From Siderastrea radians (lineage: Eukaryota > Cnidaria > Anthozoa > Scleractinia > Rhizangiidae), in contig CAXHKT010000183.1 in the NCBI GenBank assembly GCA_964017195.1, forward strand, positions 248,001 to 312,000: a stretch of DNA of 64,000 nt, read 5' to 3'. The notes beneath the pieces are model-generated. The model made no database searches, was not told the origin of the DNA, and was given only the letters and a program-made list of their open reading frames with translations. The stretch's first letter is position 1. Every line of letters starts with the position of its first letter. The translations under genes and the position numbers were made by a program. Below are positions 42,301 through 64,000 of the stretch, piece after piece.

Positions 42301-43221
42301 AAAACCTTACTTTGGCCATTTTAGGGTGATTTTTCCTTTTTTGCAATCTTGGTTGGATAAGTTTCTTGTTTTCTATCGTACAGAAATGGGAATATGAAAG
42401 TAAAGTTGTTCTTGCTTATATTATTTAGCAGTGGGAGCTCCTGGAAACTAGCTTTAAGTGTATTCCCCTGTGTTTTGACATGTCTGCAATGTAGCACAGG
42501 GTACCACTTTAAATGTTAGGCGAACCCCTCAAAACGTTAAAAATTATTTTCAAAAATAAGTAGGGAACTCAACCAGTTAAGTAGGAAAATCAACCGAAAG
42601 ATGTAGGAAACTCAACCTAATTAGGTACATGGTTGACATTCCTACACTGAGGTTGAGTTTCCTACATCTTTCGGTTGATTTTCCTACTTAACTGGTTGAG
42701 TTCCCTACTTATTTTTGAAAATAATTTTTAATGTTTTGAGGGGTTCGCCTAACATTTAAAGTGGTACCCTGTGCTACATTGCAGACATGTCATAACACAG
42801 GGGAATACACTTAAAGCTAGTTTCCAGGAGCTCCCACTGCTAAATAATATAAGCAAGAACAACTTTACTTTCATATTCCCATTTCTGTACAATAGAAAAC
42901 AAGAAACTTACCCAACCAAGATTGCAAAAAAGGAAAAATCAATGAAAATGGCCAAAGTAAGGTCTTACCCTCAACCTAATTAGGTACATGGTTGACATTC
43001 CTACACTGAGGTTGAGGGTAAGACCTTACTTTGGCCATTTTCATTGATTTTTCCTTTTTTGCGATCTTGGTTGGATAAGTTTCTTGTTTTCTATTGTACA
43101 GAAATGGGAATATGAAAGTAAAGTTGTTCTTGCTTATATTATTTAGCAGTGGGAGCTCCTGGAAACTAGCTTTAAGTGTATTCCTCTGTGTTATGACATG
43201 TCTAACCACTTTATATGTCTC
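42297..43221. repeat. Three-arm (+,-,+) fold-back structure
   Basis: Arm 1 (42297-42618, forward) is followed by a 31-bp loop (42619-42649), arm 2 (42650-42977, reverse complement of arm 1), an identical loop (42978-43008) and arm 3 (43009 to ~43221, forward again, shorter). Both loops are bounded by CTCAACCT/AGGTTGAG. Arm 3 lacks about 17 bp around 'gcaatgtagcacagg' and then diverges. Arm 1 carries 'ttttagggtgat' where arms 2 and 3 have a 'ttttcattgat'-type sequence, adding another telomere-like hexamer. Open frames in the arms are repeat-derived. Confidence 0.9.
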
Positions 43222-43276
43222 CAAAACAAATTCTGGGCTATTTAAAATAACAAAAAAAAAACCATGCAAAACTGAC

Positions 43277-46200
43277 CAATAACAAGAAGTCTCCACTCCC
43301 TTCCTCAATTAGCTGTGGGCGAAAGTCCTTGATGTACATTAACAAAATCTTGTAGAGCTCGTGGTCGTTCTGAAAAGAAGCCAATGTAAGGACTGTGAGA
43401 GGTGAACTTTGAAAATATCCACTATTTATTTACAATTGAAATATATGACCCAGTTCACTTCCTCTTACTGAAAACTAAAATTTTCCTTTACACAATTTAA
43501 TGCAATTTGAACATGTAGCTCTACTGTTGAGACTGTAAGAGCTAGACATGAAATGAGACAATTTGAAGTATTTTCTAACCAGAAACAGGGTCTATCAATC
43601 TCACCTCCAAAGTTAGCTCATCCCGTCCAGAGAAACGCTTTGTTTTGTAATTGTGAAAATGCAGTAACACTCTGTCGTCTTTTATCACCAGAAGATTTCT
43701 GTCTTTGAATTGTCTTTGGTCCAGGCTATCAGAGTCTTTAACAATCTCAAGGGTTCTGATCTCGAGGCTGCGAGATGGTGGAATGAAAACGTACAGGCTT
43801 AAAATGACCAGGTCGCAACACTCTCTTGCTTTGGTTTTAGTTGGACCAGCTAATTCGAAACGTTCACGTTGGACACCCACAGAACGAACCACCTCCTCCC
43901 TAGGAAAAAAAAACAGGGTGTATTAATGTTACCGCCACTGTGGAGAAAATAATTTTTTATCACCACAGTCAAATCTGGTATCTTTCTTGCGAACGAGTTA
44001 TTTTCACACCTTTAGCCACCAGCAAATGAAGAAAATACAATAAGATTGCCACTCCAAAAGACATCTTGCTAACTTAAAATACAAGTATAAGGAGGAAATT
44101 AAACAGCGGAGAAATAAACGTAATATTTTTGTTCCTATTACAAGACCATTACCAAATGTAACAAAGATAGTAAGGCATTGAACTTATGCAGAGCGCTAGC
44201 CAGGAAGGTGCGAATGAAAATTAACAAGCTAATAATGACCACAAAAATTGCCACCAAAATTGTCACATCAACTCACCATGGAAGCCAGCGATTTTGCTCT
44301 TCAAAGTCCTCTTTTGTCGACGGTCTCTCAAGATCTCCTTCCTTCTGGAGAAGGGCGGCTTGTACTCTAAGCTGGCGGATTATGGGAACGTTCTTAAATT
44401 CTGGACCATCCTCTCTATGAACAAACTTGATGGGGTAGAGAAGTGAGCTGATGTGATTGGATATCGTTGCTGAGCTGCATTGGCGTTCACCCTGCAATAA
44501 AAGTTATCCCAGTGTGATGTTAACAGTGAAGTACAGAGGAATACAAAAGATGTATGGCCTTAAAAGCTGATAGCACTCTAGATACCGTACTGTCTCGATC
44601 AAATGCTGGGCCTCGAGTAAAGCTCAGGTTCAAATAAACGGCGGGTCAACACAGTCAAATTTGAAACAAACACCCCCGGCGTTTATTCGAGGTACCGGCG
44701 TTTATTTGAGTCTGGGCATTTATTTGAAACTGAACCTTTATGTAGCTGATTCTCATTGAAAGTAAGTCATAGCAATTTCAGCACAATATTGGAATTTATT
44801 TATTCCGCTTGTTCCAGCTAAAGCGAGTTTGAGAAATGTACGCTACACTCTACTTAGCAACCAATTCTCCCGCCCTGTTTTGAATTTTGTCGACAAGAGG
44901 CGAAATTGGTGCCATTTTTCTCCTTTCCTGTTTTCCTTATGTTTTTCCTATATGTTGCTGTAAATTTACTTAACTTACAGCAGTAAAAAAATGATGAAAA
45001 TACCCCTTTTTAATAAATGCCGGGTCTATGAGGTCTAGTTTCAAATAAAGCCCCTTGGCGTTCAATCGAAAGAAAGTACGGTACATGGCCATGTTGCTAG
45101 TGTTAATCAAGGGTTGAATAATAATGACACAGTATTAATATGAATTTATGAAAGTAGACAATTCAGTGTAACTCTTCATAGCTTTTGCTAGCCCTGGCTA
45201 TAAGAATCAGTAAAACATTATAATTTCCCTCGTCACATTAATACAGGAGACTCGAAAGGCTGAGTGTGCAACTGAACAGTAATAAGTTAAATGAATAAAT
45301 GAAATTCATATATTTGAACTGCGGATAATGATAGAATGATAAGTAGTCAAGGTGTTTCAATCTAAGCAGTAGAAAAGAAGAAACCTGAAAAAATTCAGGC
45401 TTGAACGGGAATCGAACCGAATTGTCCGAGAAATATCCTTTAACATCCGAGCATTATCCTTTAAGGAGATATAGGAAAACAAATTCAATGAAATGCAAAT
45501 GGCTATTGAAGTCTAATGTTTACCTTGTCTAAGAACTCGTCAAGTGAAACTGATGCGACCACCCCGAAAGCCGGCCGTCCTAACGCAGTATTTTCATTGT
45601 AGAACGACCGGTTCTGCCGGCAAACGCAGCTATTCATTAACATCCAGCGCTTTCAGCTGGTTCGAGCTTAATTGAGATCAAAGACGGTTCCCTTCTTCTT
45701 CGTGCCTCCAAATAATATGGCGGACATAGCTAAGCGCGGCTGCTAAGCACGGCTGATGTCGCTTTTCGCGCGTGCATGGCACGTGCATATCATTAAAGCG
45801 AATTCGCAGGCTTGCTTCAAGTAACGTTGTATTGTAGGAAGAAATAAAAAGAACGGACTACTTTGGAACTAAGCCATTTTACTAATTGTAAGGGTATGTT
45901 TTCAGCAGTGTCGTTGCGTCGCCTAAACGACGGAAAAAATGCCGCGATGGAGTGGAATGGCGTCTGTAATTTGTTGAATGAAGGTGCGAAAAACGAAACT
46001 TCTCACCTTAAGAAACTCCACATATCCCTCGATCAGAGAAACCCTTAGAAAGCAATCGGCTGTGAGTTGTCGGTCAGACAGCGTGCTGCGTACGTATCCT
46101 AGAAAACCTGAAGGAAAGTTAAGAAAAGTTAGTTGAGAATCGAACGCGGAAAAGGTCAGTTTGCGCCACGCGGCGACGTTGCATTCCGAAAACCCGAAAT

Positions 46201-46655
46201 GACGCCGGTGATAACTGACCAAAACGGACAAGGAAAACAAAGCCCGAACAATCTTTTACTACTGAGTACTTACAAAGCATTCGCTCTTGAGCCTTGTCGT
46301 AGGTTGAGGGTGAAAGTGGAGCCTTCTGTCTTTGCAAGTTAAATTTCTGGGTGAAATAGGTCTTGACGGAATTCAGGAAGGTACGCAGATGTGCTGGTAG
46401 CTGGCTGAGTTCTAGCGCATAGGGATTCCTCCTGTTGGTTGCGCTAGCCGGAATGGAAGGCTGTTGATGAGCGCTGTCTGACTGGTGGGCCTCTTGTCCG
46501 GGAGAGTCACGGTTTGGAGAAGAGGAAGCCCGCACGGCAGCGGAATGCTGAGTTTCAGGAGTTGGCTCTTGGTCTGACTGAAGCTCCACTGTTTCAGGCT
46601 GATCGACCTCGAGGGAGGAGTCTGAGCTGTAATGCACGAGCGGGCAGAAGGCCAT
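43277..46655 (-). CDS. Crypton-like tyrosine recombinase, N-terminal part (broken gene)
   Basis: Six exons on the minus strand: 46655-46274 (ATG), 46107-46007, 45613-45524, 44491-44277, 43899-43605 and 43369-43277. All have GT-AG sites and consistent phases, giving 392 residues. Residues 1-~110 are Ser/Gln/Pro-rich and acidic. Residues ~115-250 form a helical core-binding (SAM-like) region ending in QLRVQAALLQKEGDLERP. The catalytic domain begins at ~264. IPPSRSLEIRTLE places the first catalytic Arg at ~306, and NYKTKRF gives the Lys at ~348. Tyrosine recombinases cut and rejoin DNA through a Tyr, and need RKHRH plus Tyr. Here the reading stops at GDFLLL (residue 392) at a GTCAGT donor. The next 50 bp run into the fold-back and telomeric repeats, so HxxR and the Tyr are absent on this side. 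The matching 3' exons lie at 63494-62407. Crypton assignment is inference; the recombinase fold is well supported. Confidence 0.8.
44585..45081. mobile_element. ~497-bp MITE with TA target duplication
   Basis: Termini CCGTACT...AGTACGG are inverted and flanked by TA on both sides (44583-44584 and 45082-45083). After the first seven bases the inverted match continues imperfectly (TCTCGATCAAA versus TTTCGATTGAA). No coding. A TA duplication suggests a Tc1/mariner-type MITE. It lies in the intron between recombinase exons 3 and 4. Confidence 0.6.
45375..45480 (-). mobile_element. tRNA-derived SINE-like fragment
   Basis: On the minus strand GGTTCGATTCC (45408-45418) matches the RNA polymerase III B-box consensus GGTTCGANNCC. 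It is followed by a small hairpin CCTGAA-AAAA-TTCAGG (45384-45399). No cloverleaf or clear A box was found, so it is not a tRNA gene. It is intronic in the recombinase gene. Confidence 0.45.
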
Positions 46656-46810
46656 TTGGCTTGGGATGGCGTTAGTATTAAAACTTGAACTTTAAAACAA
46701 GAAGGGAAAGAAAGTTTGTGGCGCACGTGTGAACAAGGCGAGATCGAGGGGAAGTGAGGGACCAGGTGAGAAAAGATTGGCGCTTTTGTGTCTGAGGACA
46801 GAGGCTGCGT
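46656..46810 (-). promoter_or_regulatory. Upstream region of the recombinase start
   Basis: Immediately upstream of the ATG on the minus strand, with no clear TATA box. TACTAAC at ~40 bp upstream resembles a branch point, but the only nearby AG gives the wrong phase, so I treat the ATG at 46655 as the true start. Confidence 0.3.
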
Positions 46811-47230
46811 GGGGCTTGGGCCCCAGCTGAGGTGTGATTTTTTTCAGGGGGTTAAAACGAGGCGGGGTCAAGGGCTGAGCCGGAGTAAAACTGTGCCTTT
46901 TGTAGTCTAGATAGTAGACTGCGCGATGGGATAGGTTTCAAGTTTGTGAAAGTGGAGGTGTGTGGTGGAAAAGGGCATGAAAGTCGGTGTTGAGAGAGCC
47001 GGTTGAGGGAGAGAAGACTGGGGGCTTGGGCACTAGTTGAGCTGGTATTTTTGAGGGCTTATTGCGAGGCGGGGTTAAGGGGTGGAGGACAGAAAAACTG
47101 TGCGTAATACGGTACAGGAGGTAGTCTGCGCGTTGGGGGGTGTTTTGAGTGAAGCGGTGTGCAGAGAATGGAAGGAAAGTGGGCGTTGCATGGAGGCTTG
47201 CGTTGCGAGCTTGACCGAGCACGAGCCAGA
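46811..47230. repeat. Two diverged ~208-bp direct repeats upstream of the recombinase
   Basis: Shared landmarks in order: 'ggggcttggg' (46811, 47021), 'gcgaggcggggt'-type, 'aaaactgtg', and 'gactgcgcg'/'gtctgcgcg' (46918, 47124). Spacing is 206-210 bp. GA-rich with no coding frame common to both copies. It could be a duplicated promoter or leader segment of the recombinase. Confidence 0.6.
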
Positions 47231-47450
47231 AGTCTAGGTCGAGCAGCCCAAGATGGCTGCAGCTGAAACTGTGTTTTCTATATCGCTTTGTTGCGTGTGG
47301 TGTGTGGCAGTTTGAGATGGTTTACGAAAGCCACTAGGCATGTGCTGAAGCGAGAAAGCGATTATTTGTGTGTGTCAGCACTGGTTTGGGCTTTTTACGG
47401 AGTGCAGCTCTGAGGAACGGGTAAGGATATGAGGCAACCGTTCAATCTGC
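47231..47450. other. No feature seen
   Basis: Intergenic sequence between the upstream repeats and the inverted-repeat element. No gene or repeat was recognised. Confidence 0.3.
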
Positions 47451-50283
47451 ACGTATTGAGATTTGCCATAATGCATGGTTCAATTTTACCTGTTACCATC
47501 CCCCCCCGGGCAACTCCGGGGACAAGTCCAGCCCTTCGGGCCCAGGGGTGGGGAATTGTTTGAAGCGGTCTTGTCCCGGGGGTGGGGGGGGGGGGGCAAA
47601 TCGAAAATAACTTTTTGTTGTTCTTGTAATTATATTTATAAAGCACGTCACTTCTCAGCCCGGACCGCGTGGAGAAGACTGCCTATTTCCAGGGAAATCT
47701 CTCGAATTTGTAGCAGACTGGTTCGAGAATAATCTCTCAAAGTTAAAATCTGTGTTCGGCGGTTACGTTTGTTATAAATTGTTGAACGAATGTGCGTTTG
47801 ATGCGTACTCGAATGAATGGCGGTCGTCACGAATAAAGAAATATTTCTTCAGTGTGTACATATTTATAATAAGGCGACTTAAATACACTCTATATAAAAA
47901 CGGATGCACAGCTTTATATTAAACAGAGATCTCAGTCCAGTGTTCTTATGAAACAAGCTAAGAAAAACTCCTTTAAATGCTGCCATTAATTTGTTCACGG
48001 GCCTCTTGTGAGTATGCGCTATATTTAGAATAAAACACGTGGCGAAGAATTTCTTTACTCGCCTGCCGTATGTCAGTGTGGTTAGAGGTTTTTCTTGTTT
48101 TCTTTTCCAAATATAGTGTTCATTTTTTTATTATATTATGTATGTAGTGTCCTTCGTTCAATAAACTCTAGAAAAGCGTTTAAGGAGGCTCGCAACAGTT
48201 TTTTTGGCCTTGGAGTGTATCTTTTGAAGTCAAAATTTCGCATAGAAGATAAACTTCGATTTCCTTGATACTACACCACCTTTTCAGCAAATGATCAAAG
48301 TTTATTTTCTCACTGGTTTCCTAGCAACAGCTGTCACCATAGCAACGGTAATGGACAACCCCTCATTTTAAATAATGTCGAATATCTCGAAAACTAGTCA
48401 GACACTTTATGACGAAACTTGAACTATTTGAACTACTCAACCTACACAACTTGTATGCGAAATTAGGGAAAAATCTGTAAGAGCGCTTTCACGTAAATCA
48501 TGATTCATTTTTTACGGGCTGATTTTGGTCATTCCTGCAATTTTCTTCAATATTTCAAGAAAGATAAAACTTAACACTTTCTCTTTTCAGTTGAAGGATC
48601 TTTTATGATGTCAAAACATTCTTAATGTACATTAAGCTTCCTAGGTGGCTGCGATTTTAAGATATTTATATTTAAAAACTGCTAAAATGCAGCACAAATC
48701 AGCCAAAAAGTCCGTAATTTGCATAAATAGAAATATTTCTAAACTGCCCTTACAGATTTTTCTCTTAAATTGATTGACGTTAGAATAATGATTCTTTTTG
48801 ATGTTCCAGCAAGTTTTAGGCTGAATAAGCATTTCGTTTATTAGATAAGAAGGCTGAAACTCGGTCAGGTTTCAGTCGTTATTAACTTTCAACCAGCAAC
48901 AGTATTGTTTTGTTCTTCCTGGTCTATTTCTCGGTTATTCACGTGCAATGAATATTGATACACGCTGCGCTTGTGTCCTCTCGTGCATTTATAATTCCTT
49001 CTCATAATAAGAAAAATTTTTCGTCTTCTGAGCTTCTTCCTGGAGACTCTTTGCCATTATTCTTTAAATACTGACTGACGTTTTAGCCTTTTTAATTACG
49101 GATTGCATACATGTTTTAACAAAAACGCCCACGATGGTATTACACTGGGGCCGAAAAATGACGAGAAACAAGCTCAGAAGACGAATAATTTTTTTTTATT
49201 ATGAGAAGGAATTACACTGAACGCACGAGAGGACACAAGCGCGGCGTGTATCAATATTCATTGCACGTGAATAACCGAGAAATAGACCAGAAAAAACAAA
49301 ATAAAACTGTTGCTCGTTGAAAGGTAATAACGACTGAAACTTGACCAAGATCCAGCCTTCTTATCTAATAACAGAAATGTTTATTCAGCCTAAAACTTGC
49401 TGGGACATCAAAAAGAGTCATTATTCTAACGTCAATCAATTTAAGAGAAAAATCTGTAAGGGCAGTTTAGAAATATTTCTATTTATGCAAATTACGGACT
49501 TTTTGGCTGATTTGTGCTGCATTTTAGCAGTCTTTAAATATAAATATCTTAAAATCGCAGCCACCTAGGAAGCTCAGTGTACATTAAGAATGTTTTGACA
49601 TCATAAAAGATCTTTCAACTGAAAGGAGAAACTGTTAAGTTTTATCTTTCTTGAAATATTGAAGAAAATTGCAGGAATGACCAAAATCAGCCCGTAAAAA
49701 ATGAATCATGATTTACGTGAAAACGCTCTTACAGATTTTTCCCTAATTTTGCATACAAGTTGTGTAGGTTGAGTAGTTCAAATAGTTCAAGTTTCGTCAT
49801 AAAGTGTCTGACTAGTTTTCGAGATATTCGACATTATTTAAAATGAGGGGTTGTCCATTACCGTTGCTATGGTGACAGCTGTTGCTAGGAAACCAGTGAG
49901 AAAATAAACTTTGATCATTTGTTGAAAAGATGGTGTAGTATCAAGGAAATCGAAGTTTATTTTCTATGCGAAATTTTGACTTCAAAAGATACACTCCTAG
50001 GCCAAAAAAACTGTTGCGAGCCTCCTTAAGTTCTTGTCAAAATGTCTGGTTTTGCTATTGTACGGAAATCAATATAGTTATTTATGTTTTGAACACAAAA
50101 CAACGTATTTGTGGTCGATGAGGAGTCCCGGGGGTGGGGAATTGTCTCTTTCTGCGTGCCCGGGGTTGGGGAATAGACTGCCAAGTGAGAAAAAAATTGC
50201 AAATCCCCGGGGGTATGCCCGGGGGGGGGGGATGGTAACAGGTAGAATTGAACCATGCATAAGCGTCAAATCTGAATACACTG
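47451..50283. mobile_element. Outer inverted-repeat element with CCCGGGG-type ends
   Basis: The left end 'gtattgagatttgcc...atgcatggttcaattttacc' is inverted at the right end ('ggtagaattgaaccatgcat...caaatctgaatac'). Both ends continue into G/C runs with copies of 'cccgggggtggggaattg'. It contains a nested TTAA-flanked fold-back (48184-50025). The extra left-hand sequence (47600-48180) has no counterpart on the right. No coding. Confidence 0.6.
48184..50025. mobile_element. TTAA-flanked fold-back transposon with ~850-bp arms
   Basis: Left arm 48184 to ~49036 and right arm ~49168-50025 are reverse complements with few differences, around a ~130-bp centre. TTAA flanks both ends (48180-48183 and 50026-50029). 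The termini are GGAGGCTCGCAACAG and its complement. A TTAA duplication fits piggyBac- or Kolobok-type transposases acting in trans. The ~60-75-codon frames near 48641 and 49341 are the same arm sequence in opposite orientation and are not a gene. Confidence 0.85.
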
Positions 50284-50920
50284 TATTTAAAACCAATTGA
50301 CTGAAATTAGCTGTGGAGTGTAATCGTTGTGCTATCAGATGACCGTTTACAACCCCGATAGAGGGTTGCAATGTTTGCAAGGAAAAGCGAACTGTGGTTT
50401 CGTGATTGACCGGCTGTGGTTTTACCTCGCATCTGATCGGTGGCTAGTCAATTGACCGAGCTTTGTCTTTCTTTGGTTGAAATTATATCGCTTTTTATAT
50501 CGGTTATATCGTTTTTTATATCGTTAATATACCGTTTTGGTCTTAGTCTGCATTTTGTACTGACCGAGTCTGCAATCAATCGTAGTTACTCTGGATAGGA
50601 CTCCCCTTTCTCATGATTGGTGCGTCGTTTATCAGTATTCGATTGTTTTAAGGGACGGACCACTTGACTTTTTTTTTCTTTCTGGCAGATTTTTACAATG
50701 GAAAGATTCAGGTGCAACACCATTGTCGAAAAACAATTTGCCTTGCCACATACAGTGAGCCGGAAAATTTTTTTTACTGCAAGACACTCCTATGGCTGAC
50801 ACAAGTAACGTTACTGACGTTGAAATGGGTGAAATTTTAAGAATATATTAAGGTCATACCCAAGGCTGAGATTTCTTGATGGAAAGTAAAATACAATAAA
50901 ATCACGTGTTTTTTTTTTGG
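50284..50920. other. Intergenic, downstream of gene 1
   Basis: No gene is seen. Contains repeated 'ttttatatcg' motifs (50490-50530) and a T-run at 50909-50918, just past the gene 1 polyadenylation signal. Confidence 0.4.
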
Positions 50921-50927
50921 AAAGAAC

Positions 50928-50933
50928 TTTATT
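50928..50933 (-). terminator. Polyadenylation signal AATAAA of gene 1
   Basis: AATAAA on the minus strand, ~314 bp after the gene 1 stop codon (51247). A genomic A-run follows on the same strand about 9 bp further on. Confidence 0.5.
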
Positions 50934-51246
50934 CAAGGTAAAGCAATGAAGCAGGTGCGCAATGTGACACGATACAGACACCATACAGTTACCATGCAGT
51001 TCTATTCGATAGGCATAGCACCTGAAGTTGTGCAACAAAATCTAAATAGCAGCTGGACGCAATAGTGAATTAAGATTATCCGCAAAGCTGTTAATGAATA
51101 AGTCAGGCACAGTTACTCCGCGCCGGAAAATCTTTAGTCGGTCACTTTGTTTCCAATCTCACTCTGGAAAGAAACAGTGAAAAACGAAAAACAAACACAA
51201 CAAACTGAGGCACACTTTCAACATCAACATGGTAGTTTACTGAAGA

Positions 51247-53400
51247 CTACAAGTCAGGGAGGAACGTTTTTTTCAAAACCTTTTTGAGAGCTGAAACTGA
51301 ACGTCTGGTGGTGAAATACTGTTCATCTATTTAGTTTTGCGTTTAGTTGAACGCAAGTTACATTTGCTCTTTGTTTTCAATATTTTGCTAGACAAGGGTT
51401 TTGGTTTTCGCAGCGGCAATAGTTGTTCTCCTAAGTATGCTAGGAACAGTTTTGGAAGGAGCAACACTGAGAAGCAGCACTACTGGAGTAAGGTCTGTGA
51501 CAAGTTCTAAATGCGACACACCTTGCACTGCAGAAAAAAAAAGATTCATTTTCCGTGGACATAGAATTGAGTGTAAAATCGCTCTTGTTTTGGGAAGAGG
51601 ACTCAGAAAAAAAAAACAAAACAAAACGAAACAAACAATACAAACAGACTGTGCCAAACCGCCCATCGTGAGACGGAGCAAAATGGTGCTGGTTCTCAGT
51701 GGAATGACCTTTTTATCCTCAGATATAAGACATCACTTTTAAATCATTTGGTAACTGAAACGAATTCCACTACGAGACAGCATGTCATCACCTACTCCTC
51801 CACGCTCACAGTTCTCTAAAACTAATAGCGTTATCTTATTTGTAACAGGCCAATTCTTAAACAAAAGACCAAAGTTTAATCAGTTCACGAATTACCGGAG
51901 AATCTTGAAAGAATGGCTTCCTCTTCGGCCGCTCTGTCGGAGGTCAGGAATGCTCTCCAGGGGGAGTCTTGTGGCAATCTTCTCCGAAAGGCGACGAGAG
52001 CTGCAAGCTTAGCCTCGCGGGTTGGTTGGTCGTTTACGGTGCGCGCCACTTTCCTCAGCTGGTCCCAGAAGAGGGCAAAACCGCTGCTCATCTGCACAGA
52101 GAGAAGTTTAGGCACCAGCCGAGCCAGTTCACCGATGTGTCGAAGGCACATTAATCTGTTCCGCTGACAGTCTAACATGGTGCACAATAGTGCCTTGACT
52201 GCGCGCTTCCTCTCCGTTCTTTGAGCGGGGGGCAATTCTCTGGGAACCGCTAGGTTGTATATCTGGTGAACGGCCACTGAACTTGCCAAGCGCTGGCTCA
52301 TCAACTGGCCCCTGCTGCGAGAAGCCCTACCAAGAAGGTTACATAGGCAAAGGTGTCGAGAAAATACACTACAAACTGCGCAGGTGGCATTGTCAGGGCA
52401 GGGTGGCTCTTCTGCCTGGGTCAATTCGACAAAGCGTTCCTCTCCTCCTTCCTTCAGGCGACAGCGCTCCGTTCGACAACTGCAACGCTCGCCGCAAATT
52501 CCGAAGAGGGCGGCCATAGTTTGGCAGACCTGTTGCTTTCTAATCTCGGTGACTTGCCCGCTGATTGCTTCTTGCACCCTCTCGGGATCTCCAGGCCAGA
52601 TATGTGGCGAGGTGCCTGGCAGAGCGGACACTACACGCTGCCGAGGTAAGAACAATCGAAAGGTTCAAGGTTGGAATAGGTCTCGCCTGTCAACACATAC
52701 TAAGTCCAGTCCACGAGGGCTTAACATAACCCGAATCAAGCGGCAAAAATAATAAAAAATAATAAATTAACGCTAAATTAACGTGTAAACAAAAACTAAC
52801 CCTACTAGGAATAATAAGCTTTTCTAAAAAAAAATAGGTCTTAAGTTTAGGTTTAAAAATACTCAAATTGTCACATGAACGGATGTTGTCAGGTAAGCTG
52901 TTCCAAAGGTGACAAAGTTATCCCACGACAACTGACTGCATCTTTAGACATTTTCTTCCCTTCATGCCATTTCATTTCATTCGTTGTTTTTCGGTCCTTC
53001 GTTCGTTCGTTCTTTTCATTCCTTCTGTCTATCTTTCTCGCTCTTTTTCTGGTTTGTTTCCGTTTTTCTTTTGTTGGTCTAATTGAGTTTCCGTGAAACT
53101 ACAGGCTTCGAGAGAGAACCAAAGCGTGCAACCTACCTCTTGGCTCAGCGGCTTGTGATTTTGGAAAAACTCCAACAGGTGCTGCCAGCTCTCCCGATCT
53201 GGGAATTTGTCCTCCCTCATTCCAGGAATACGCAGGCCTTGAAGTCCCCACGTGTCGGCGTCGGCCTCCTGTTCACCTGGGGAAGAAACTGAAGCGCGAC
53301 AAATATGCGCGGGTAAGTAAGCAAACTAGTGATGAAGTTCGAATTCGTCTTTAAAGGTACAATTCTGATCAGCATCAAATTTGTTCTCATCATAATTATA

Positions 53401-53438
<38 letters not shown>

Positions 53439-56400
53439 CCTCATCATCATCCTTATTATTATTATTATTACTTATAGAATTTTAGATAGGTAATAAAATA
53501 CATTCTTTGAAATTTCAATAGATAAGGAAACTTTTGACTAATCTTAACAAAAGGCCTTAAACGATCACCGAGGATGAATTGTCTTGACGTTTAGACGAGT
53601 CCTTCCAGTTAGTCCTCAATGAAATGTATGTAGACCAGTAAGGAGAATTTGTATAATGATACCGGGGCGCAGCCAAGCAAACTGAAGCAACAGCACAATT
53701 CGCGACTTAAGTGTCAGGTTAGGTTTGAAGAAGGAGCCGACAGAAAAGACTTTGCAAACTCCACGAAATCGTAGATTTCAAGGCTTTGCAACCCAGGCAG
53801 CAAGTGCACAATGCAAGTTAGTTGAGTATTTTGCTTGGTATAGAATAGCGTAACTTTGTGACTACTCCCACATTTTAACTGATTGTAAATTTTTTTCACG
53901 AAGCTTTCTTGTAAATAATAATGGTATTTCCAAGTTTTACTGTTCTTTCTGGAGACCTCAAGTTTTTGTCACACAGAGAATTTCAGTATCTGTCTTGAAA
54001 AAAAAAAAGTCTCGCTCACTGAGAATTGTGCTATTGCCCAAATCGTTAATTAAAATTACCTGCGCCACTTTGTTCTGTCCCTGTCTGTTCTCTCCTAGGA
54101 GCCTTGCTGCCCTTCTCACCACCGACCGATGCAGATTTGCTTCTTCTTTTTCTGCCCGCGGAAGGCGCACGTGCACGGCTGGCGCGGGGCGCGACCACCT
54201 CCTCGGCTTGACTACCTTCTAGCTCGGATTCACTGTCACTTGTGTTTAGCTGGGCGAAGTGCGCAAGCATGGTACTGAGGGTTGCGTTGTCGCTCCCTTC
54301 TGCTCCCTGCGTCTCCGCCGAAACATCTCCGGTCTCCGCGCTTTCGCCGGTTTTGCCAATCTGTTGCATGACAGACTGAGAGAAACCGCAAGCTATAAGA
54401 TGCTCTTCGTAACTTTCGCTCGACTCCTCGTTCTCCTCTTCCCTCCATCCCTTGGTTAGACTCGCAGAGAGTGCCTCCAGAGCCTCGACGTCTAGCGGCT
54501 GAAAGGTGGAGAAATTCACTCCGAATTCTACCATTGCTGCCATCAAATACTGTGGAATGTACGTTCGGCGGTGATAGCGGATGGCTGCGTATCTTAGGTT
54601 TAGAAGTCGCGCTTTGCTGAGTCCAGTTCCACTGATAGTACCCCGGCTTACCAGACAGGCTACGTCACACACCGCGAGTCTCCGAAGGCTTAAGTTGCTC
54701 GCTTTAGCTCCTACTGTTATGTTCCCAGGGATAAATCCGCCATGAGCTTCGGCAACCAATCTTCTCGGGAAGCCGTGAATAAATTGCGGGCTCGCCAAGC
54801 TCCAAGACGGTGCGTCCCAGACCATGACATTCTGGTACCTGGAAGACACAACAACCACAAATAAGGAGTCAACACTTCCGCTCTCTACCAGTTGTTAGCG
54901 CAAGAACAGTACCAAACAAATGCCCAATTATTAACGAACAAGTTATGGTCACTTTTTCGACGTCATAGCTTACTTGTTAAAAACACCCCTTATTTTAGGT
55001 TCAAGAGTGGTTAAAACTCAAAAACGAGCGCGCTCTTGTAATCCCCTTTCTTTCTTTTGCGCTTTTGCGCTTTGTGTGTGTGTGTGTGTGTGTTTTGCTC
55101 TCGAATTGCGATCAAGACGTTAACACTTGTTCAAAAATGATAAGGCATTTGGGTGATGACATGATCTGATCATATTGCAAAGTGCTGGAATTACGATCGT
55201 GCGGCCTCACAAGACAAGCCGAGCAGCGCAGGGCAGTGGAAAATCACCAACTTCCTGGCGATCAAAGAACTTTGCCCTACTTGTAGATGTAGTGAAATCG
55301 TTTTCTTCTCGGCCCACCCCCTCCCCCCCCCTTTCAAGCAAGTTTTGTGATAAAATAGAGGCACTGACCACACTTTAAGCAGCATTGCAAACGCACAGAA
55401 CAAAAAATGTCAACCTAAATTACGTCAGTGACAAATGATGGTGAAGTTTCAGGCAAGTCAAAGACGGATGAAATGAACTTTATCAGCTGTAAATAAGGCG
55501 TACTTCAAATAATGCGTCAACCAAACTCACCTGTCTAGGCGAACGTGTTTCAAATTGGCATCAAACGCCTCCTGTCCGCTTTGCAGTGCTTTTGTTAAAC
55601 CTCTCCCGTCTAGGCGGAATAATGTCCATTTGTCGACATCCCGGTGCGAGAGTCTAGCCGATGAAGAGCGCGTCCGGTCTTGGCTACTGGGTCGCGTGTC
55701 CTTCCACCCGCTCTCCAATCGCTCCCTACAGTATTGGATCGCCGAAGCCGGGTCTGCAAAGCTCGTTTCTTGTGCGGGGGAGTCCTCTTGTGCTCCCCTG
55801 GAAACGATGTGCCTCGGCAAAGTTAAAGTGTCCAGCAGAAAGAGATCGAAATTAAAGTCTAGTGGCCGGTCGTCCGAGACAGCGAAAGCCAGAGGAAAGT
55901 AAGGCAATGCGCTTTGTGCGTCACGCTCGCGTAAAATGGCATCGACGCGCCTGTGTTCCGATGGGGTGCTAGCTTCTTCATCGGCGTCGGGGACCAAGAA
56001 TCCATCTCCTTCTTCTTCTTCTCCCTCCTCTTCTTCTTCTTCTTCTTCTTCATCCTGGCTTCCGCCTGCTTCCACCCGCGCTTCATCGTCCAAGAACTCA
56101 CGTGTCCTGGCTGACGGGAGCCGCCTCGTGTTTCCACGCACCGGCCTCGGTGATCCTCCCTCGCTAGCGCTGTCGTCCTCTTCTGTCGCTTGACGGCTAG
56201 GATATAAGGCAGCAAAGCAACTGTCATTGCTGATTACCCGCGGTTGATCGGTTTATTTTATTTCTTCAATAAAGGTTTGTTTTGAGCCTATTGTGATGCC
56301 TAATTTATCTTTTAACCAATTGTGTTTAGTTCAAAAGGCAGAAAGTTTCTTGTCCCGGCCATTCTGCCTTGGAACAAAAGAAAAGCAAAATTACAATTCT

Positions 56401-56924
56401 TAAAATAGTTGCCTTTTTTTTTGTTTTGTTTTGTTTTTTTTCCAGAATCAGGTGTCACTAAAACGAGTAACGCAGTAACGAAAGGGACAAAAATTACAAT
56501 TAAAAAAAAAACGAGTAAGGGGAAAAATTAAAGGGTGAAAATTATACAATAAGCGATTCCGTTAATAATAGGGTTGCCTATCTCAAACCTGGATAATTCT
56601 CCGTAATCAGAGTTTTGCAATGCCCGGCATTTAGTGTCACGAACTTTGTAGTATGCACAAGCTGCTAAAAATTCGTCAAACAAAAAACAAAATTAGTCAG
56701 TTGAATTGCTTGGTAATTCTAAACAAACTTCGAATACTCCCGGGCCGTTTGTCAACTGCAAAACCAAAATGCTTTTCTGAGCCCGCTAGGCAATTCTTAA
56801 CAAATGTCGAACACTTTCAGAACGTTAGCACAAGCCTTTCCTTCGAATTAGTTCGAATCTTTCGGGATTGCCGGGTGTTTAGTCCCGAAACATCCGTACC
56901 CGGCTGCCGAGTATCTCGACACCG

Positions 56925-56972
<48 letters not shown>

Positions 56973-57665
56973 TTGTAATTTTCACCCTTTAAGATTTTTC
57001 CGTTTATATATATTACTTTCCCTTTCAAATTTTGCTCGTTTTTTTACCCTTCGAAAGATTTGTCCGTTTCGAAAGATTTTTACGTAATAAAATTAATTTA
57101 ACAGTGAGTAACAAAACAGTTTTAAAGAACATCAACTCGAAAGAGGCTAAGTTGGTGGAGAGTACTGCAATTTCGCAAGTTTCCAAAAAAGTACAAACAT
57201 CGCGTGCAACTGATTTGGCATGTTGCAATCTTAGACTTTCTACGTTTATATCTCTTGAACTTAATCAGGCATTTCAACTTAAAACTTTTACCATTCGATA
57301 GCTCTTTATTTCCTCTAGTGCGTATGAATTTTTGTCAAAATCGAGAAAAAAATCGGTTTTTTCTCTTCCCTGTATCCTTAGTTGTCATTGAACGCGACTT
57401 CCGCAAAATCGCAAGAATTAATCCCCAGCAAGTAAAAGGAAAATCGCGATCGAGGGGAATAACTGAGTTTGACATGGGTACATACGACTCACCGTCTTCC
57501 GGTCGATCGCTTTTCCCGATGGTGGTGAACCTCAGCCTCTACAGCCCGGACGCTGGGAACGGCACTTGTTTGTTCTCCAGTGTCTCCATCGCGGCCAGAG
57601 GGTTGAGTGCAATAGGAATCCATCGTGGCTTGGCTTCGTTTTCCTGAGACTCTACTGCCGCTCAT
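51247..57665 (-). CDS. Novel six-exon protein, acidic and Cys-rich, 847 residues
   Basis: Exons 57665-57493, 56196-55531, 54838-54060, 53276-53137, 52637-51896 and 51290-51247 have GT-AG sites. Their lengths sum to 2544 bp (848 codons including TAG), and every junction keeps frame. The N-terminus (1-120) is charged, with a poly-Glu run at ~107-120. Residues ~140-415 form an ordered region across exons 2-3 (FPLAFAVSD, DKWTLFRLDG, QNVMVWDAPSW). An acidic Ser/Glu-rich stretch (~420-505) is followed by a nuclear-localisation-like cluster (RKRRSK, ~509). Exon 5 has ten cysteines at ~624, 634, 638, 640, 645, 666, 672, 675, 683 and 685, a likely zinc module, then a helical region with DCQRNRLMCLRHIGELARLVPKLL. 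The 3' exon encodes only ~14 residues. I do not recognise the family. Position between the two recombinase halves on the same strand suggests a partner gene of one element. MDSYC at 57623 is an alternative start. Confidence 0.75.
53402..53470. repeat. (TTA)n microsatellite in gene 1 intron 3
   Basis: About 20 ATT/TTA units interrupted by 'cctcatcatcatcc'. Lies between exons 3 and 4 of gene 1. Confidence 0.95.
55073..55093. repeat. (TG)n microsatellite
   Basis: About ten TG units in gene 1 intron 2. Confidence 0.9.
56925..56973. repeat. (ATT)n microsatellite in gene 1 intron 1
   Basis: About 16 ATT units, uninterrupted. Confidence 0.95.
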
Positions 57666-57702
57666 CGTGCTGATCACTTGTGTGGAAGCGAAAAATGAGC
57701 TC

Positions 57703-57711
57703 CCTTTTATA
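57703..57711 (-). promoter_or_regulatory. TATA box of gene 1
   Basis: TATAAAAGG on the minus strand, ~40 bp upstream of the first ATG (57665) and ~80 bp upstream of the second (57623). With initiation 25-30 bp downstream, the second ATG would have a more usual leader length. Confidence 0.55.
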
Positions 57712-57811
57712 AGCAATTTATTGCGTCATGGAAAGTCCCACTTTGTGATATTTTTAGCTCTGAAAAGTCCCGGGCCTTATCATCGCTATTTTAAGCTCTG
57801 GCAGGGAGAGA

Positions 57812-57845
57812 CTGGGTTTTTGCCCCGTTCGGGGCAAAAACCCAG
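57812..57845. repeat. Perfect 15-bp hairpin upstream of gene 1
   Basis: CTGGGTTTTTGCCCC, spacer GTTC, then the exact reverse complement of the first arm. It lies ~147 bp upstream of the ATG. It could be a regulatory hairpin or a recombinase recognition site (tyrosine recombinases bind inverted arms around a short core, though usually 6-8 bp). Role is unproven. Confidence 0.8.
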
Positions 57846-58980
57846 GCCTCCGCGACCGATGGCTTCAGCAAACATGGAGTTTGAAACGTCGCTCAATTCC
57901 CGTCAACTTCGCTCAACTCAATTCCCCTCCGTTTCATTTCTCTAAGCGCAAATGCATCGTCCACTTCCCACACGAGTTAGACCAAGCACATTGGCGCACT
58001 TTCTAGATTGTATTGCTCACCCGGTCGAATTAATTGTTCTGTCATGTCCAGTAAGCTTAAGCTTATATATTTTTGTAGTCAGTACAAGAACAAACGACCA
58101 ACAACCATTTCTGGGTTTGTCGTACCATGTATTTAGAGGAAGCCGTCTTTGAAGATTTATCGAACACTTAATATATCTAAAGAGCAGCCTTGTGGTGGCC
58201 TTGCCTTATGTTTGATAATTTTGATGACGTCACATGAAACCGCGACCGATTGCCCACACGCAGCACATACAATATTATTATTATTAATGTGGTTAGCTGG
58301 CATTGTACTGTACTTGCATACGGTTCCATCATTTTGGGGATATTTTCTTTTATCGGGTGTATCCAGCCAACTCTGCACAGAAGGGCGTCTTAAAATGACT
58401 TCCATTTTAATATAGTTTTGTTCATACTCGAAATTAGCCCTGATCTAACCTCATTCCTGAACCAAGAAATTCCAGAATGTTTCACTTTGAACCAGACTGA
58501 AGGGTACTAATCTGAATATGAACAAAAGTATTGAAATGGAAGCCAAACTGTTTGGGCTCAGATTTGACAAAATTTGACAAATTTTGCATGGCTATTGCAA
58601 GGAGAAATGAAAAGTTGATCAACAACGAAAACAACATTGTTAAGACTGCTTTATTCAAGTCAAACAAATTAACAAGTGACCTAGCTGCCTCTGGAATTAT
58701 TTGAATACTTGCATGATTTATTATTTTTCCGCGGTGGATAGAAAGGGGGAGTTGGGCAATTGGCTGAACAAATTTACGCTGAGATTGTGTGCTGGAATAT
58801 CTCATTCTCCTAAATGTTTATTGATTCACTTTTTCATAAAATTATTTAAACCGAACAGAGTAATCTTCAGTAATGCTTTCAGGTTGTGGAGAGAATCTGT
58901 GTTTTGGTCGCTTGCGACAAATTGAAGGCGTTTTACAAATATTATTAGTGATTTGCAAATGCACCCAAAGGCATATTCTG
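57846..58980. other. Intergenic, upstream of gene 1
   Basis: No convincing gene on either strand. The frames here lack domain-like composition or splice partners. Confidence 0.35.
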
Positions 58981-58987
58981 CTTAGTG

Positions 58988-59079
58988 TCCTCCATTCATT
59001 TCTTATGGAACTAGTAAGGAGAACTTGTCTAAATATCACTGAGACATATTCTCCTTGGTGATTAATTGCTTTATTCTCC
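58988..59079. repeat. Dispersed ~90-bp repeat, copy 1
   Basis: Contains 'aggagaacttgtctaaatat' and 'attctccttggtgat', matched at 60785-60874. The AGGAGAA/TTCTCCT ends are inverted. Confidence 0.7.
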
Positions 59080-59781
59080 TACATGCATTCTCCTACATAC
59101 ATTCTCAAACATCCATCTTAACTGCAGAGAATTGCCCTGTGTTGATCACAAGTGTGTCCAAAAAACTAACACAAAAGAACCACAGACAGGTCTGTGCTCT
59201 GGCAGGGCTGTAATCATATTGTCCAGTGAGATACACACCCCTGCCACGCCCCCATGGCAAAATAAATGTCTTGAGATCACAGGATAAAAGGACTCACTTG
59301 GATCATTATAAAAATTAACCAAGCTGCTCTCTGTAGTAGTAAGATGGTGTCTTGTTTGAATAGCCCCCATTCTATCAGGAGTAGAAACTAAGAAAAAGAT
59401 TCAAACTTCCTTGTTGCATTTCTCCAGCAATGCAAGCTTAATGCACACCACATATGAAAGTCTCAACTCAAATTTTGAGGCCAATAAATTTTGTCCATTT
59501 AGCTAATCAGATAGGTGGTATCTTGCATAACCCTAACCCTACCCCTCCACAAGGTGGGTCCTCATCGAGTGCACTTGTGAATGACCACTCCCCTAACCCT
59601 TTAGGGCCCAAAACATACAAAATGTGGGAAGCCAAGCATTCTTCAGAGAGAATTGAGCAACCGTATATAACTTTCTTTCAAAATGAAAGCTCAATTCTGT
59701 CTGAAAAAATGCGAGGTTAAACCCCTATTTCCTTTCAGGATTCTGATAGCCCTCGCTATGTAGCTATAACTGTCACTGGAA

Positions 59782-59783
<2 letters not shown>
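59080..59783. other. Intergenic, no gene seen
   Basis: Contains 'aaccctaaccct' at 59529-59540, two CCCTAA telomere-type units, and an 88-codon plus-strand frame (59454-59720) with no recognisable domain. Confidence 0.35.
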
Positions 59784-59822
<39 letters not shown>

Positions 59823-59900
59823 CTTTATTAAGTCACCAAATCAGGGCTTTTCACATCCAATGTACAAAATAAATTAGATAAATTAGTAAATTATTAATTA
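59784..59900. mobile_element. (AAT)n microsatellite with retroelement-tail-like flank
   Basis: About 12 AAT units (59784-59821) followed by 'aaactttattaagtcaccaa'. A trinucleotide tail joined to a fixed sequence suggests the 3' end of a truncated non-LTR retroelement on the minus strand. The microsatellite is certain; the element call is tentative. Confidence 0.45.
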
Positions 59901-60784
59901 GACAAATACAACTATTTGATAAAACACCTAACTAAAAAATATTAGATAAGACTCCTAGACATTGAAATATAAAAACTTTGAAAACAGTAAATCTCCTATT
60001 TAAAGAAAATGTTTCTCAAAGAGAGATTCTCTCAGTTTCTTTTTGAAGTTTCTTCTTGAAAGGCAATGAGAACTGTGAATGTTGATTTAATTTCAACTTG
60101 TCTGCTTCAAATTATGTAAGCTATTTGTTTATAAAAAGCATTTATTCTGGTCCTCTCCGAAATCGCAACCCTGGTGACAAAGGAAGCAATTAACACTTGA
60201 TCCCGTCAGAACGATGAAGATTCCGCGGCAGAGTCGAAAGCGTGTGGGTCCCTTGAGCGTATTACCCTATAACAAGAGATAAATCCAGTTCGAATCCCCC
60301 CCTCCCCAGGCACGATCCACAGTCAAATGCCCGGAAGGAAATGTTGAAGCTTATTGACCGGTACGTAATTCTATGCCTTCAGTTACTGGATAGGAGTTTC
60401 CGGAGGAACAAATAGAAGGGCGACTCCTGATCTAATGTCAAATTCTCCCTTTTATTCATAATAGACAAGACAAATTGCAAGGGGAATCTAGCAGTTTTTA
60501 GAAGTCCTTTGGGGCACCAACGGTCTGCTGAAGAATTGAATGATATATTTCCGAAACAGCTGAAGCTTCAGGAAACTTTAAATCCCTCAAGTCATGTTTA
60601 CCAGCAGGCATAATTTTTCTTTACGGTTTTACATATTTTTTTTTTTTATCTGGAAGAACCTTTATGAGCGCAATTCAATTTTTTATACTTCGAACAGATT
60701 TTGTGTAATTCTTAGCAGCCAAATGAGCAGAAGTTGGGTGTTGTTCCTATTGGCCTGAGATGAAAAGGCATTTTCTTCTTACTT
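59901..60784. other. Intergenic, no gene seen
   Basis: AT-rich. 'actcctgatctaatgtcaaatt' near 60423 recurs near 61336, indicating degenerate dispersed repeats. Confidence 0.3.
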
Positions 60785-60874
60785 TTCTCCATACCTTTCT
60801 TTTGCAACTAGTTAGGAGAACTTGTCTAAATATCAAGACATATCCTCCTTGGTGATCACTTACTATATTCTCCT
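60785..60874. repeat. Dispersed ~90-bp repeat, copy 2
   Basis: Second copy of 58988-59079 with several differences. It shares 'aggagaacttgtctaaatat' and 'ctccttggtgat'. Confidence 0.7.
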
Positions 60875-61535
60875 CACTTGAATGTTTGAAGAGGTAGTGA
60901 TAATGTAAAGAGAATTAGTGACAGCCGCCTTGAGAACAGGGATTTGAGAATCTCCACCCCCTTTAGCTGACAGTTGAATCACACTGTCCCTGAAAGTTCT
61001 TTGTTTTAGCAAGACAGATTTTTCAGGTAACCATGCCTTGTACTAATGAGGTGAATCGGGTAAAGAAAAACTCGCCTATATAGCTGCTCAGACTCTACTG
61101 TAACAAACAAATATAGGAGAGAATAAACATGGAATACATGAGTCAGTAAATAGCTGGACTGGTTTATTGAATTTTTTAAACTGTAGCTTAGTTTCACAAT
61201 CTGCCCACCAATGACTTCCCTTATCTCGCCTTGCTCAAACGTGCACCAAACAACTTCACAGCTAAACTACAACAAAAAATCAAAGGCATTTGTCGAAAGA
61301 ATTAGCTTGTGCATGAAGAAAAGTCATTTCAATAACTCCTGATCTAATGTCAAATTGTCCCTTGATTTACAAACATACACACACAAGGTTAGGGTCACTC
61401 CCTTAATTCTAGTGACTTAGGGCTAAAAGGGTAAACGCGATATGCACGTTGTTGTTTGCTCTGTGAGAACAAGACAAAACCCCATCGCTTTGACTGAATA
61501 AAACATGAACCCTTACTTGTATAAATTATATAACA
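60875..61535. other. Intergenic, degenerate repeats
   Basis: No gene seen. An 'aaagaattagcttgt' fragment near 61296 is a diverged relative of the adjoining tandem repeat. Confidence 0.3.
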
Positions 61536-62391
61536 AAGAATTAGCTTGTTCACCAAGACATGTCATGCTTGGTAAACATTGGTTTGAATCTCACTGAGGT
61601 TCATCTGGTTGAAATAAATTAAACCCTCTGGAAACAAATTAAGCCCTTAAGGCCCAGTATGGAACTGCATCTTCTCCTTACTTGTATGGCATTTCTTGGA
61701 AAGAATTAGCTTGTTCACCAAGACATGTCATGCTTGGTAAACATTGGTTTGAATCTCACTGAGGTTCATCTGGTTGAAATAAATTAAACCCTCTGGAAAC
61801 AAATTAAGCCCTTAAGGCCCAGTATGGAACTGCATCTTCTCCTTACTTGTATGGCATTTCTTGAAAGAATTAGCTTGTTCACCAAGACATGTCATGCTTG
61901 GTAAACATTGGTTTGAATCTCACTGAGGTTCATCTGGTTGAAATAAATTAAACCCTCTGGAAACAAATTAAGCCCTTAAGGCCCAGTATGGAACTGCATC
62001 TTCTCCTTACTTGTAGGGCATTTCTTGGAAAGAATTAGCTTGTTCACCAAGACATGTCATGCTTGGTAAACATTGGTTTGAATCTCACTGAGGTTCATCT
62101 GGTTGAAATAAATTAAACCCTCTGGAAACAAATTAAGCCCTTAAGGCCCAGTATGGAACTGCATCTTCTCCTTACTTGTATGGCATTTCTTGAAAGAATT
62201 AGCTTGTTCACCAAGACATGTCATGCTTGGTAAACATTGGTTTGAATCTCACTGAGGTTCATCTGGTTGAAATAAATTAAACCCTCTGGAAACAAATTAA
62301 GCCCTTAAGGCCCAGTATGGAACTGCATCTTCTCCTTACTTGTATGGCATTTCTTGAAAGAATTAGCTTGTTCACCAAGACATGTCATGTT
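61536..62391. repeat. 164/165-bp tandem repeat, 5.2 copies
   Basis: 'aagaattagcttgttcacca' starts copies at 61536, 61700, 61865, 62030, 62194 and 62358 (last truncated at 'gtcatg'). Copies are almost identical, mainly differing in 'ttggaaag' versus 'ttgaaag'. The array ends 15 bp from the recombinase stop codon, directly in its 3' flank. Confidence 0.95.
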
Positions 62392-62406
62392 TAGGGTTAT
62401 TTATAC

Positions 62407-63494
62407 CTATTTTTCCATAACAGCTTTGTGGATTCTGCGAGGGGAAGTCGTGAGGCGATAAACTCCTGGCCGATTTTTGGCTGCTTTCAGTGAAACTGGG
62501 ACGAGACTTCCAACACCCTCAGTCCATTGCCCGCCACTCAGTTCAAGTTTGTACAAATTTGGGGATATGTTCTTGTACCAGAGAAGCGAAACATCTGCCC
62601 TTCCGACAAACGCATGCAATTGGCCAATCAAAATTTTGGGCGAGCTTAAAGTGCTTCCTTCCTCTACCACTGCAACAAAATCCCCCAATTTAAAAGGACA
62701 GTCATCAGAGGTTTCAGCAGGGCTGTCCTGGGAATTTTCATCCAACTGACCTTCGGCATATTCTCTGGCCAAACTGACGGCAAGCTGCTTTCTCTCGTTG
62801 GCAGTACGCCTATCATAAGTCTTTTGCGCCTGCTGTCTTGTGTGTCTGAGCGCTGATGCAAGTGATGTTTTGAGAGAATCTGTGCAGTCACTGTGTAAAA
62901 TTTAAAAATGCGTATTTTTAATAAACAGCAATTTGGGACTTGACATGGTAGTATTTGAGGCACAAGGTTAAAAGCTACCCACTTAAATCAATGCTTACCC
63001 CTACACCATGTGGTGACTTAAACAGCCTCAAACAGTATAGCTGAGTAATTGATCTAAAATGCTGCTTTATTTGATTTATCACAGACAATTTTCCAGCATT
63101 TTTTCCAAATGGTGTTTGTGAAGAGTCTGCTCCCAAGTATTGTTAATGTTTTCAACTTTGTTGAAAATTGCTAAAAATTCCAAGGAATTGAGGACAAACT
63201 CATTCCATCTCCCCACTAACACTACTGTTGTAGTCAAGCAAAAACAAATGATAAAAACTGACATCACAGAGTCGGCATGACACTATCATAACAACAACAA
63301 TAAAAATTATGAACAATAACGTCCACAAGGTGTAGGAAGTAATAAAATTATCTTACTTACTTCATTCCATATGCCCAGGTTATAAAAGCCGAGCGAAGCA
63401 TATGCACCGAGACCAGCTTCCCAGTTAGTCCAAAGAACAAATTTTTCATGTGTGCGCTGAAGGCAGGTCCAGTGAACCTATAGCCTTTCTTGTT
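62407..63494 (-). CDS. Crypton-like tyrosine recombinase, C-terminal part with SH3/BAH-like tail
   Basis: Two minus-strand exons, 63494-63361 (acceptor 'tttctttgtag', donor GTAAGT) and 62890-62407 (acceptor 'ttttacacag', stop TAG), join at phase 2 and give 205 residues. Exon one contains FTGPAFS and VHMLRSAFITW: the HxxR motif. Exon two contains LRHTRQQAQKTYDRRT: catalytic His, then nine residues later the Tyr nucleophile, the XerD-like spacing. Then comes a charged linker, followed by ~95 residues (GDFVAVVEEG, IGQLHAF, VSLLWYK, GGQWTEG) resembling a BAH- or SH3-like barrel. The upstream intron reaches toward the window end with no 5' exons seen. Exon one starts at phase 0, exactly what the truncated N-terminal part at 43277 needs. 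Joined order would give Arg306, Lys348, His423, Arg426, His453 and Tyr462 in a 597-residue protein. Whether the halves are one permuted gene or neighbouring copies is open. Confidence 0.78.
62891..63360 (-). other. Intron of recombinase C-terminal part
   Basis: 470-bp intron between the two exons. AT-rich, no other feature seen. Confidence 0.6.
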
Positions 63495-63854
63495 CTACAA
63501 AGAAAAAGAAAGCATTGTGTTTGTAACTGCAGAGGGAAAACCAAGAAACAATCAATCCTATTGTGTGAGGGTTAATTTTCTTGAACAATCGCCCTTGGGG
63601 TTGGACTTGCCTAGGCCTGTGGAATGATTTGTAACTAGAAATCACCCCAATGGTTGGCAAAGAGTGAGTTGAATGTCGCAGCCACCCCTAAAAGGGTGAA
63701 ATTTGTGGTACAATCATGAACCAAAAGTGTAATGGGGTGACCTTTTTCGTGCAATTTTGTAAATTTCCCCGTATATACTTGAGTAGTGGTCTAAGCAAAA
63801 CGCCTCTTCAACCCTCCGGTACTTATCTCCGTTCTTTCCAATTGCGTTCTTTAG

Positions 63855-64000
63855 AGAAAAGGCCTGTCGGTTTCTCCTGCCTGGGACTACAGACAAACCT
63901 GCGACCCACTATTTCAAGTTCAAGATAGCGATGGCCTGGAATTTCATGCTTTTGTTGAGGTATGCGACAAAGTGTTTCCTGACATCCCAAGACAAACCAT
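63855..64000 (+). CDS. Possible partial exon at window end (unidentified)
   Basis: After the acceptor-like 'ttgcgttctttag' a plus-strand frame stays open to the window end, with protein-like content (SPAWDYRQTCDPLFQV, LEFHAFVEVCDKVFPD). If real, it belongs to another gene on the opposite strand to the recombinase, so the recombinase intron would be broken within ~360 bp of its exon. Weak evidence; could be chance. Confidence 0.25.

Follow-up and report, generated by a model that had tools for sequence, protein, structure and literature searches.

A recombinase gene with its halves exchanged

The window analysed here is a 64,000-nucleotide stretch of the Siderastrea radians genome (C166:248001-312000 of an 805-Mb assembly), containing one integrated unit of a two-gene tyrosine-recombinase element at 42300-63716 (Table 1). 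The recombinase gene of this unit is divided into two halves in swapped order, both on the minus strand, with the 5' half at 46655-43277 and the 3' half at 63494-62407. These positions, the strand and the phase-0 ends had been given in the original prediction and stood up to a base-by-base check; exon boundaries follow GT/AG, and phase 0 matches where the 5' half ends and the 3' half starts. The prediction also gave the 5' half six exons, where relatives support five, and the sixth (45524..45613, minus strand) is probably spurious. Its 30 residues are absent from P0003-P0005, the relatives covering that place, and 46107-46007 joins 44491-44277 directly and in phase without it; we therefore rejected this exon.

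Table 1. Features of the integrated unit and its immediate surroundings, in window coordinates.
Feature	Coordinates	Strand
Telomeric TTAGGG repeats, one of them short; target DNA at the left end of the element unit	42241..42299	+
Left part of the partitioned intron; TAAAACC starts at the telomeric hexamer	42300..43276	-
E6, last exon of the 5' half, phase-0 donor GTCAGT	43277..43369	-
E5, 5' half, catalytic Arg and Lys	43605..43899	-
E4, 5' half	44277..44491	-
E2, 5' half, presumably the core-binding domain	46007..46107	-
E1, 5' half, start codon	46274..46655	-
ORF2, second element gene, 836 aa, intact, five exons	51885..57665	-
ORF2 exons	57665-57493, 56196-55531, 54838-54060, 53276-53137, 52637-51885	-
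F2, 3' half: His, nucleophilic Tyr, C-terminal domain, stop	62407..62890	-
F1, 3' half, HxxR, phase-0 acceptor	63361..63494	-
Right part of the partitioned intron	63495..63716	-
Neighbouring recombinase ORF, other family, single-exon (L009)	63855..64000, on to 66182	+

When translated and joined, the halves give one tyrosine recombinase of 567 aa (corrected model). Residues assigned by motif place R276 and K318 in the 5' half and H393, R396, H423 and Y432 in the 3' half, so the active-site set is complete only in the joined protein, as had been proposed. The same set (R, K, H/N-x-x-R, H, Y) was found by motif in the joined relatives P0001, P0002 and P0017, and in eight motif-matched relatives the His of HxxR is replaced by N (7) or Q (1). 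The predicted structure has the catalytic-domain fold of the tyrosine recombinase superfamily, with a mean pLDDT of 54 and confidence in the catalytic part only. With E values up to 1 allowed, Pfam Phage_integrase failed to match P0001, P0002 or either half alone, and matched P0017 at E 0.0022 (18.2 bits, below the cut-off of 27.1). Within the same E limit, Phage_integr_3 (PF16795) matched neither of the halves and none of P0001, P0002 and P0017, and a sequence search of the PDB returned weak C2-domain matches only (E 0.58 or worse).

We also considered whether the halves came from two unrelated subfamilies, one of the outcomes that would have undone the prediction. This is ruled out by their similar identities to the joined relatives, 62.8 and 66.3% to P0001 and 56.0 and 55.9% to P0002 for the two halves. 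Trees were weakly resolved, with the sister family (see below) and the neighbouring recombinase on long branches, and hence carry no claim here.

The ORF2 exons had no family match above cut-off, and no ORF2 relative was found in the protein collection at E 0.01 among 7,993 candidates scored. Scans with Rfam and for tRNAs returned nothing informative, and those of viral contigs and prokaryote genomes found no relatives of interest. A search for att-like repeats within the window alone, where the right end of the unit is trimmed, gave nothing above chance.

Unit ends and tandem junctions across the assembly

The 3' half occurs in 12 copies in the assembly (98-99% identity), several of them about 25 kb apart, and units elsewhere measure 22-26 kb. 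E4-E6 with an intact donor were found at 14/14 places read (window counted once, C420 left out). Contig C42 has the halves in normal order: E4-E6 occupy 556119-554896 and are followed by an intron of 3.9 kb, with F1 starting at 550974 and F2 after it. Within this intron are a minisatellite of 116 bp and the sequence CATTTCATGG-TTAGGG-TAAAACC. This junction motif also marks the exact end of the left half in the window, which there leads from a 163-bp satellite through TTAGGG repeats to TAAAACC at 42300, and 42300-43203 is a shortened form of the minisatellite and foldback of the C42 copy. On the right, homology to C42 extends as far as 63716 and falls about 150 bp short of the CATTTCATGG terminus; these 150 bp have apparently been lost by a deletion joining the unit to the neighbouring recombinase ORF, itself apparently 5'-truncated. 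Two of the checks put forward with the original prediction, a comparison of the intron ends and a search for uninterrupted paralogues, gave the expected picture: tandem junctions, of which C42 was read in detail, carry genes with one intron joining the halves.

To find further ends, we searched the assembly for TTAGGGTAAAACCTTACTTTGGCC, a pattern that includes one TTAGGG, so that left ends lacking the hexamer (beyond two mismatches) would escape it. There were 15 exact and 17 two-mismatch sites. All 17 of the latter are the foldback's inner copy, with the sequence TGAGGGTAAGACC, while the 15 exact sites comprise 7 tandem junctions and 8 outer left ends, a count that leaves out the unreadable left end of the second C311 array.

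At 7/7 tandem junctions we found CATTTCATGG-TTAGGG-TAAAACC, identical over 240 bases and located in the intron between E6 and the 3' half, with exactly one TTAGGG joining head-to-tail units whose halves are in normal order. All eight outer left ends found read (TTAGGG)n-TAAAACC, with telomeric hexamers directly attached. Of the five known outer right ends, four show CATTTCATGG-(TTAGGG)n and the other is the trimmed end in the window (the outer right ends of arrays C42, C311 and C328 are left out of this count). The units therefore sit in telomeric repeats, and the flanks expected of a telomere-inserting element, in fixed position and orientation, are present at 8/8 left and 4/5 right ends. At the right end of C270, everything up to the end of the contig, 853 bases, is telomeric tract, made up of 141 hexamers plus three extra T; at that of C311 the tract is degenerate. 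The left flanks represent at least five different surroundings. Some are alike (C42 and C53; C130, C311 and C328) because other elements abut there.

The unit thus begins and ends inside an intron of the recombinase gene that it carries, at a TTAGGG hexamer, in line with the proposal that a circle had been opened inside that intron. The split is not a chance event, since, apart from the window's right end, all the readable unit ends and tandem junctions that we examined share this one intron boundary. The prediction's alternative, adjacent tandem copies of one unit, fits elsewhere in the family, but the window copy is a single unit, with its left end in telomeric repeats and no other copy within 40 kb. 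Across the 144 kb read (the window plus 40 kb on either side), every exon of the family is present just once, and the 40 kb to the right of 64000 holds no 5' half in the same orientation, as simple tandem copies would require. The sole other match in those 144 kb is a distant recombinase just right of the window (28 and 24% identity). The telomeric target and the att-like hexamer go beyond anything in the original prediction.

A sister element with an unsplit gene

The assembly also contains a sister family, whose F2 is about 51% identical and whose arrays are of about 28.7 kb; it serves as a natural control. Its recombinase gene is unsplit in 8/8 fetched loci, where E5, E6 and F1 follow in order within 1.6 kb without TTAGGG (E6 being a weak match, E 0.014). 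In C53, the whole sister gene lies on one strand and a homologue of ORF2 (27-34% identity) on the opposite strand; past ORF2, the sister DNA stops at TTAGGG repeats that hold a unit of the window's family. A sister tandem junction in C94 reads CCGG-GTTAGGG-TACTTTT and is located outside the gene (one junction read). Telomere insertion and a single-hexamer junction are therefore common to both families, and of the two, the window's family alone places the junction within its recombinase gene. As the sister element shows, telomere insertion needs no gene splitting.

Relatives in other cnidarians

Relatives were drawn from the best 7,997 candidates by shared words, with a length range for the joined query that covers full-length relatives. 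Nine carry NCBI names, eight from stony corals and one from a sea anemone, and none of these gene models is joined (0/9); each has one half or part of one. The four 5'-half relatives are from Montipora capricornis (two), Acropora millepora and A. palmata (one each). One of these models ends exactly at the junction, and the other three overrun it by 5, 13 and 40 residues of unrelated letters. The five NCBI-named 3'-half relatives have the 3' half, or the last exon or part of it only, without a 5' half. These other corals are represented here by gene models only, and genes may come out split in an annotation for unrelated reasons. Such split models in coral annotations may nevertheless be real biology rather than errors.

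The joined relatives, P0001 (1,972-base contig), P0002 (2,071-base contig) and P0017 (2.7-Mb contig), are without an intron at the position of the split. The source label of P0001 and P0002 is lgn, which we take to be an assembly of public reads, and P0017 is probably a retrocopy of a spliced message.

A proposed mechanism and its alternatives

The fixed ends and the intronic tandem junctions suggest that integration at a telomere-like hexamer in its own intron permutes the gene; in tandem arrays the normal order is restored. We consider it highly probable that the window holds a single integrated copy of a telomere-repeat-specific two-gene element, whose intronic site splits the gene on integration and whose circle or tandem form restores it. 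The recombinase would act on a circle, using as attachment site the putative core GGTTAGGGTA in its own intron, a sequence that matches 9 bases of the telomere repeat. Recombination with telomeric GGTTAGGGT would insert the circle and divide the gene, leaving the 5' half, the expected bearer of the promoter, on one flank and the 3' half on the other. The full enzyme could then not be made from a lone integrated copy; a second unit landing in tandem would restore the gene, as, we infer, would the circle. The attachment site would be spliced out of the message with the intron. Tandem arrays might also grow by unequal recombination.

Several other explanations for such a gene order were considered. 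Telomeres recombine readily, and a circle might recombine with a telomere or telomere loop through a short TTAGGG match, making the element a passenger in homologous recombination at a telomere-like motif; the sequence shared with the target is indeed only 9-10 bp of telomere repeat. However, the eight left and four untrimmed right ends lie at the same base, despite other TTAGGG hexamers inside the unit. The GGTTAGGGTA junction is also common to two recombinase families of this genome, and the unit encodes a recombinase with the complete motif set, making the passenger explanation unlikely. It is still harder to believe that the window shows no more than two neighbouring ordinary tandem gene copies, one by its 3' end and the other by its 5' end, meeting at an unremarkable boundary. 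Arrays of about 25-kb units with the halves in normal order do exist, yet the window unit is the sole family copy in the 144 kb read, and the single units C53, C270, C311 and C420 are bounded at both ends by telomeric repeats at the same intron position.

Base-exact ends recurring in several unrelated surroundings, and coral gene models of other assemblies that break at the same intron, likewise leave very little room for an assembly artefact at repeats. Assembly is nevertheless difficult in telomere tracts and satellites, the small contigs that carry the copies look unplaced, and some stretches are unreadable. Finally, broken chromosome ends might have been healed by telomerase at an intronic TTAGGG, with TTAGGG running outward at the right ends as in a healed end. 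Healing would give CCCTAA at the left ends; these instead read TTAGGG on the same strand as the right ends, with a CCCTAA count of 0 in 300 bp at 8/8 left ends, and other DNA lies beyond the telomeric tracts. The repeat orientation therefore refutes telomerase healing of left ends, and healing as an explanation of the units is barely conceivable.

A broader reading is reasonably likely: that this is a self-splitting eukaryotic recombinase, old and shared across stony corals, in which the intronic site ties enzyme production to the arrangement of copies. Circles and tandems would express the enzyme and single copies could not, so that a unit would remain trapped in the telomere for as long as no other copy has joined it. 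The persistence of "suicidal" elements then becomes testable by comparing single units with tandem arrays, and the sister with its whole gene is available in the same genome for comparison.

Comparison with known systems

In the SSV-type "suicidal" integrases (SSV1, SSV2, pTN3, pT26-2), the attachment site is in the integrase's own gene, integration halves that gene, and excision would need a complete gene elsewhere, as outlined in part of PMC8371274. A 2021 review treats recombinases that break their own gene at integration as exclusive to archaea. The coral element resembles these integrases in having its integration site within its own gene, which is partitioned when integrated. It differs in its spliceosomal-intron site, telomeric target, tandem restoration and animal host. 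As there was no PF16795 match, we do not file it as an SSV-type member and say only that it works alike. It would nevertheless be an animal element with the logic of the archaeal gene-breaking recombinases, in which the intron keeps the attachment site outside the coding sequence. Among the papers listed by searches of the open-licence literature, no title or abstract opening describes a eukaryotic recombinase whose gene is divided by an attachment site in an intron, and PMC12440569, on Troyka retroelements, proved irrelevant.

The element would also add a telomere-dwelling recombinase to animal telomere biology, where the endogenous nimaviruses (majaniviruses, pemoniviruses and some whispoviruses) provide a parallel. 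As described in portions of PMC10871703, these viruses of crustaceans are recombinase-bearing and inserted in host telomere repeats, (TAACC)n, and reads suggest concatemers or episomes; majaniviruses measure 278-401 kb. The coral element likewise bears a recombinase and sits in telomere repeats, but has units of 21-26 kb with two recognised genes and no recognised viral gene. The same portions of PMC10871703 do not mention a gene split, and the likeness drawn here is one of description. By analogy, we would thus describe the element as working like the SSV-type integrases and targeting like the nimaviruses, while filing it with neither, nor with the Cryptons. The latter are DNA transposons with a tyrosine recombinase that have been proposed to move as circles; in animals they lack a C-terminal domain, and terminal repeats were not found, according to the excerpts of PMC3212892 cited here. 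In the coral element, the tandem junctions may hint at a circular intermediate too. Compared by description with CryptonA, the coral element differs in its size of about 25 kb, second gene, C-terminal extension, telomere target and split gene.

Neighbouring recombinases and apparently stacked units

The unit, an integrated two-gene tyrosine-recombinase element, is bordered on its right by a recombinase ORF of a third family, which shares ~28% identity with the 5' half of the window's split gene. Searching with the 3' half listed 18 similar 3' parts in the assembly (27-28% identity, E ~1e-11), with weaker ones besides; 17 of the 18 lie in frames of 882 aa. On contig C53, one of the listed 3' parts is preceded by (TTAGGG)n-TAAACCCGG. 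Beyond the left ends of the unit copies on C42, C53, C130, C311 and C328, units of different families appear to be stacked serially in telomeric repeats, with short TTAGGG tracts parting them. C130, C311 and C328 have their left flank in common.

Features in and beside the window
Feature	Window position	Remarks
Third-family recombinase ORF	63855-64000, on to 66182	single exon; head to head with unit
ORF2, second element gene	51885-57665	836 aa; N-terminal part acidic
163-bp satellite	1-804, 19983-42245	plus 40 kb further left
152-bp satellite	4442-18024	filled throughout

ORF2, family range and repeats

The long exons of ORF2 matched nothing above the cut-off in Pfam, and a search of the protein collection gave no relative (E 0.01, 7,993 candidates scored). 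A homologue is carried by the sister element, a related telomeric family with a whole recombinase gene. The recombinase family itself extends beyond stony corals, since P0050, which is related to the 3' half, comes from a sea anemone (Actinostola).

Between the element's two genes lies a 1.85-kb inverted repeat (48180-50029; arms 92% identical). The 163-bp satellite region contains a duplication of ~8.5 kb, with the ORFs at 24144-25026 recurring at 32662-33544.
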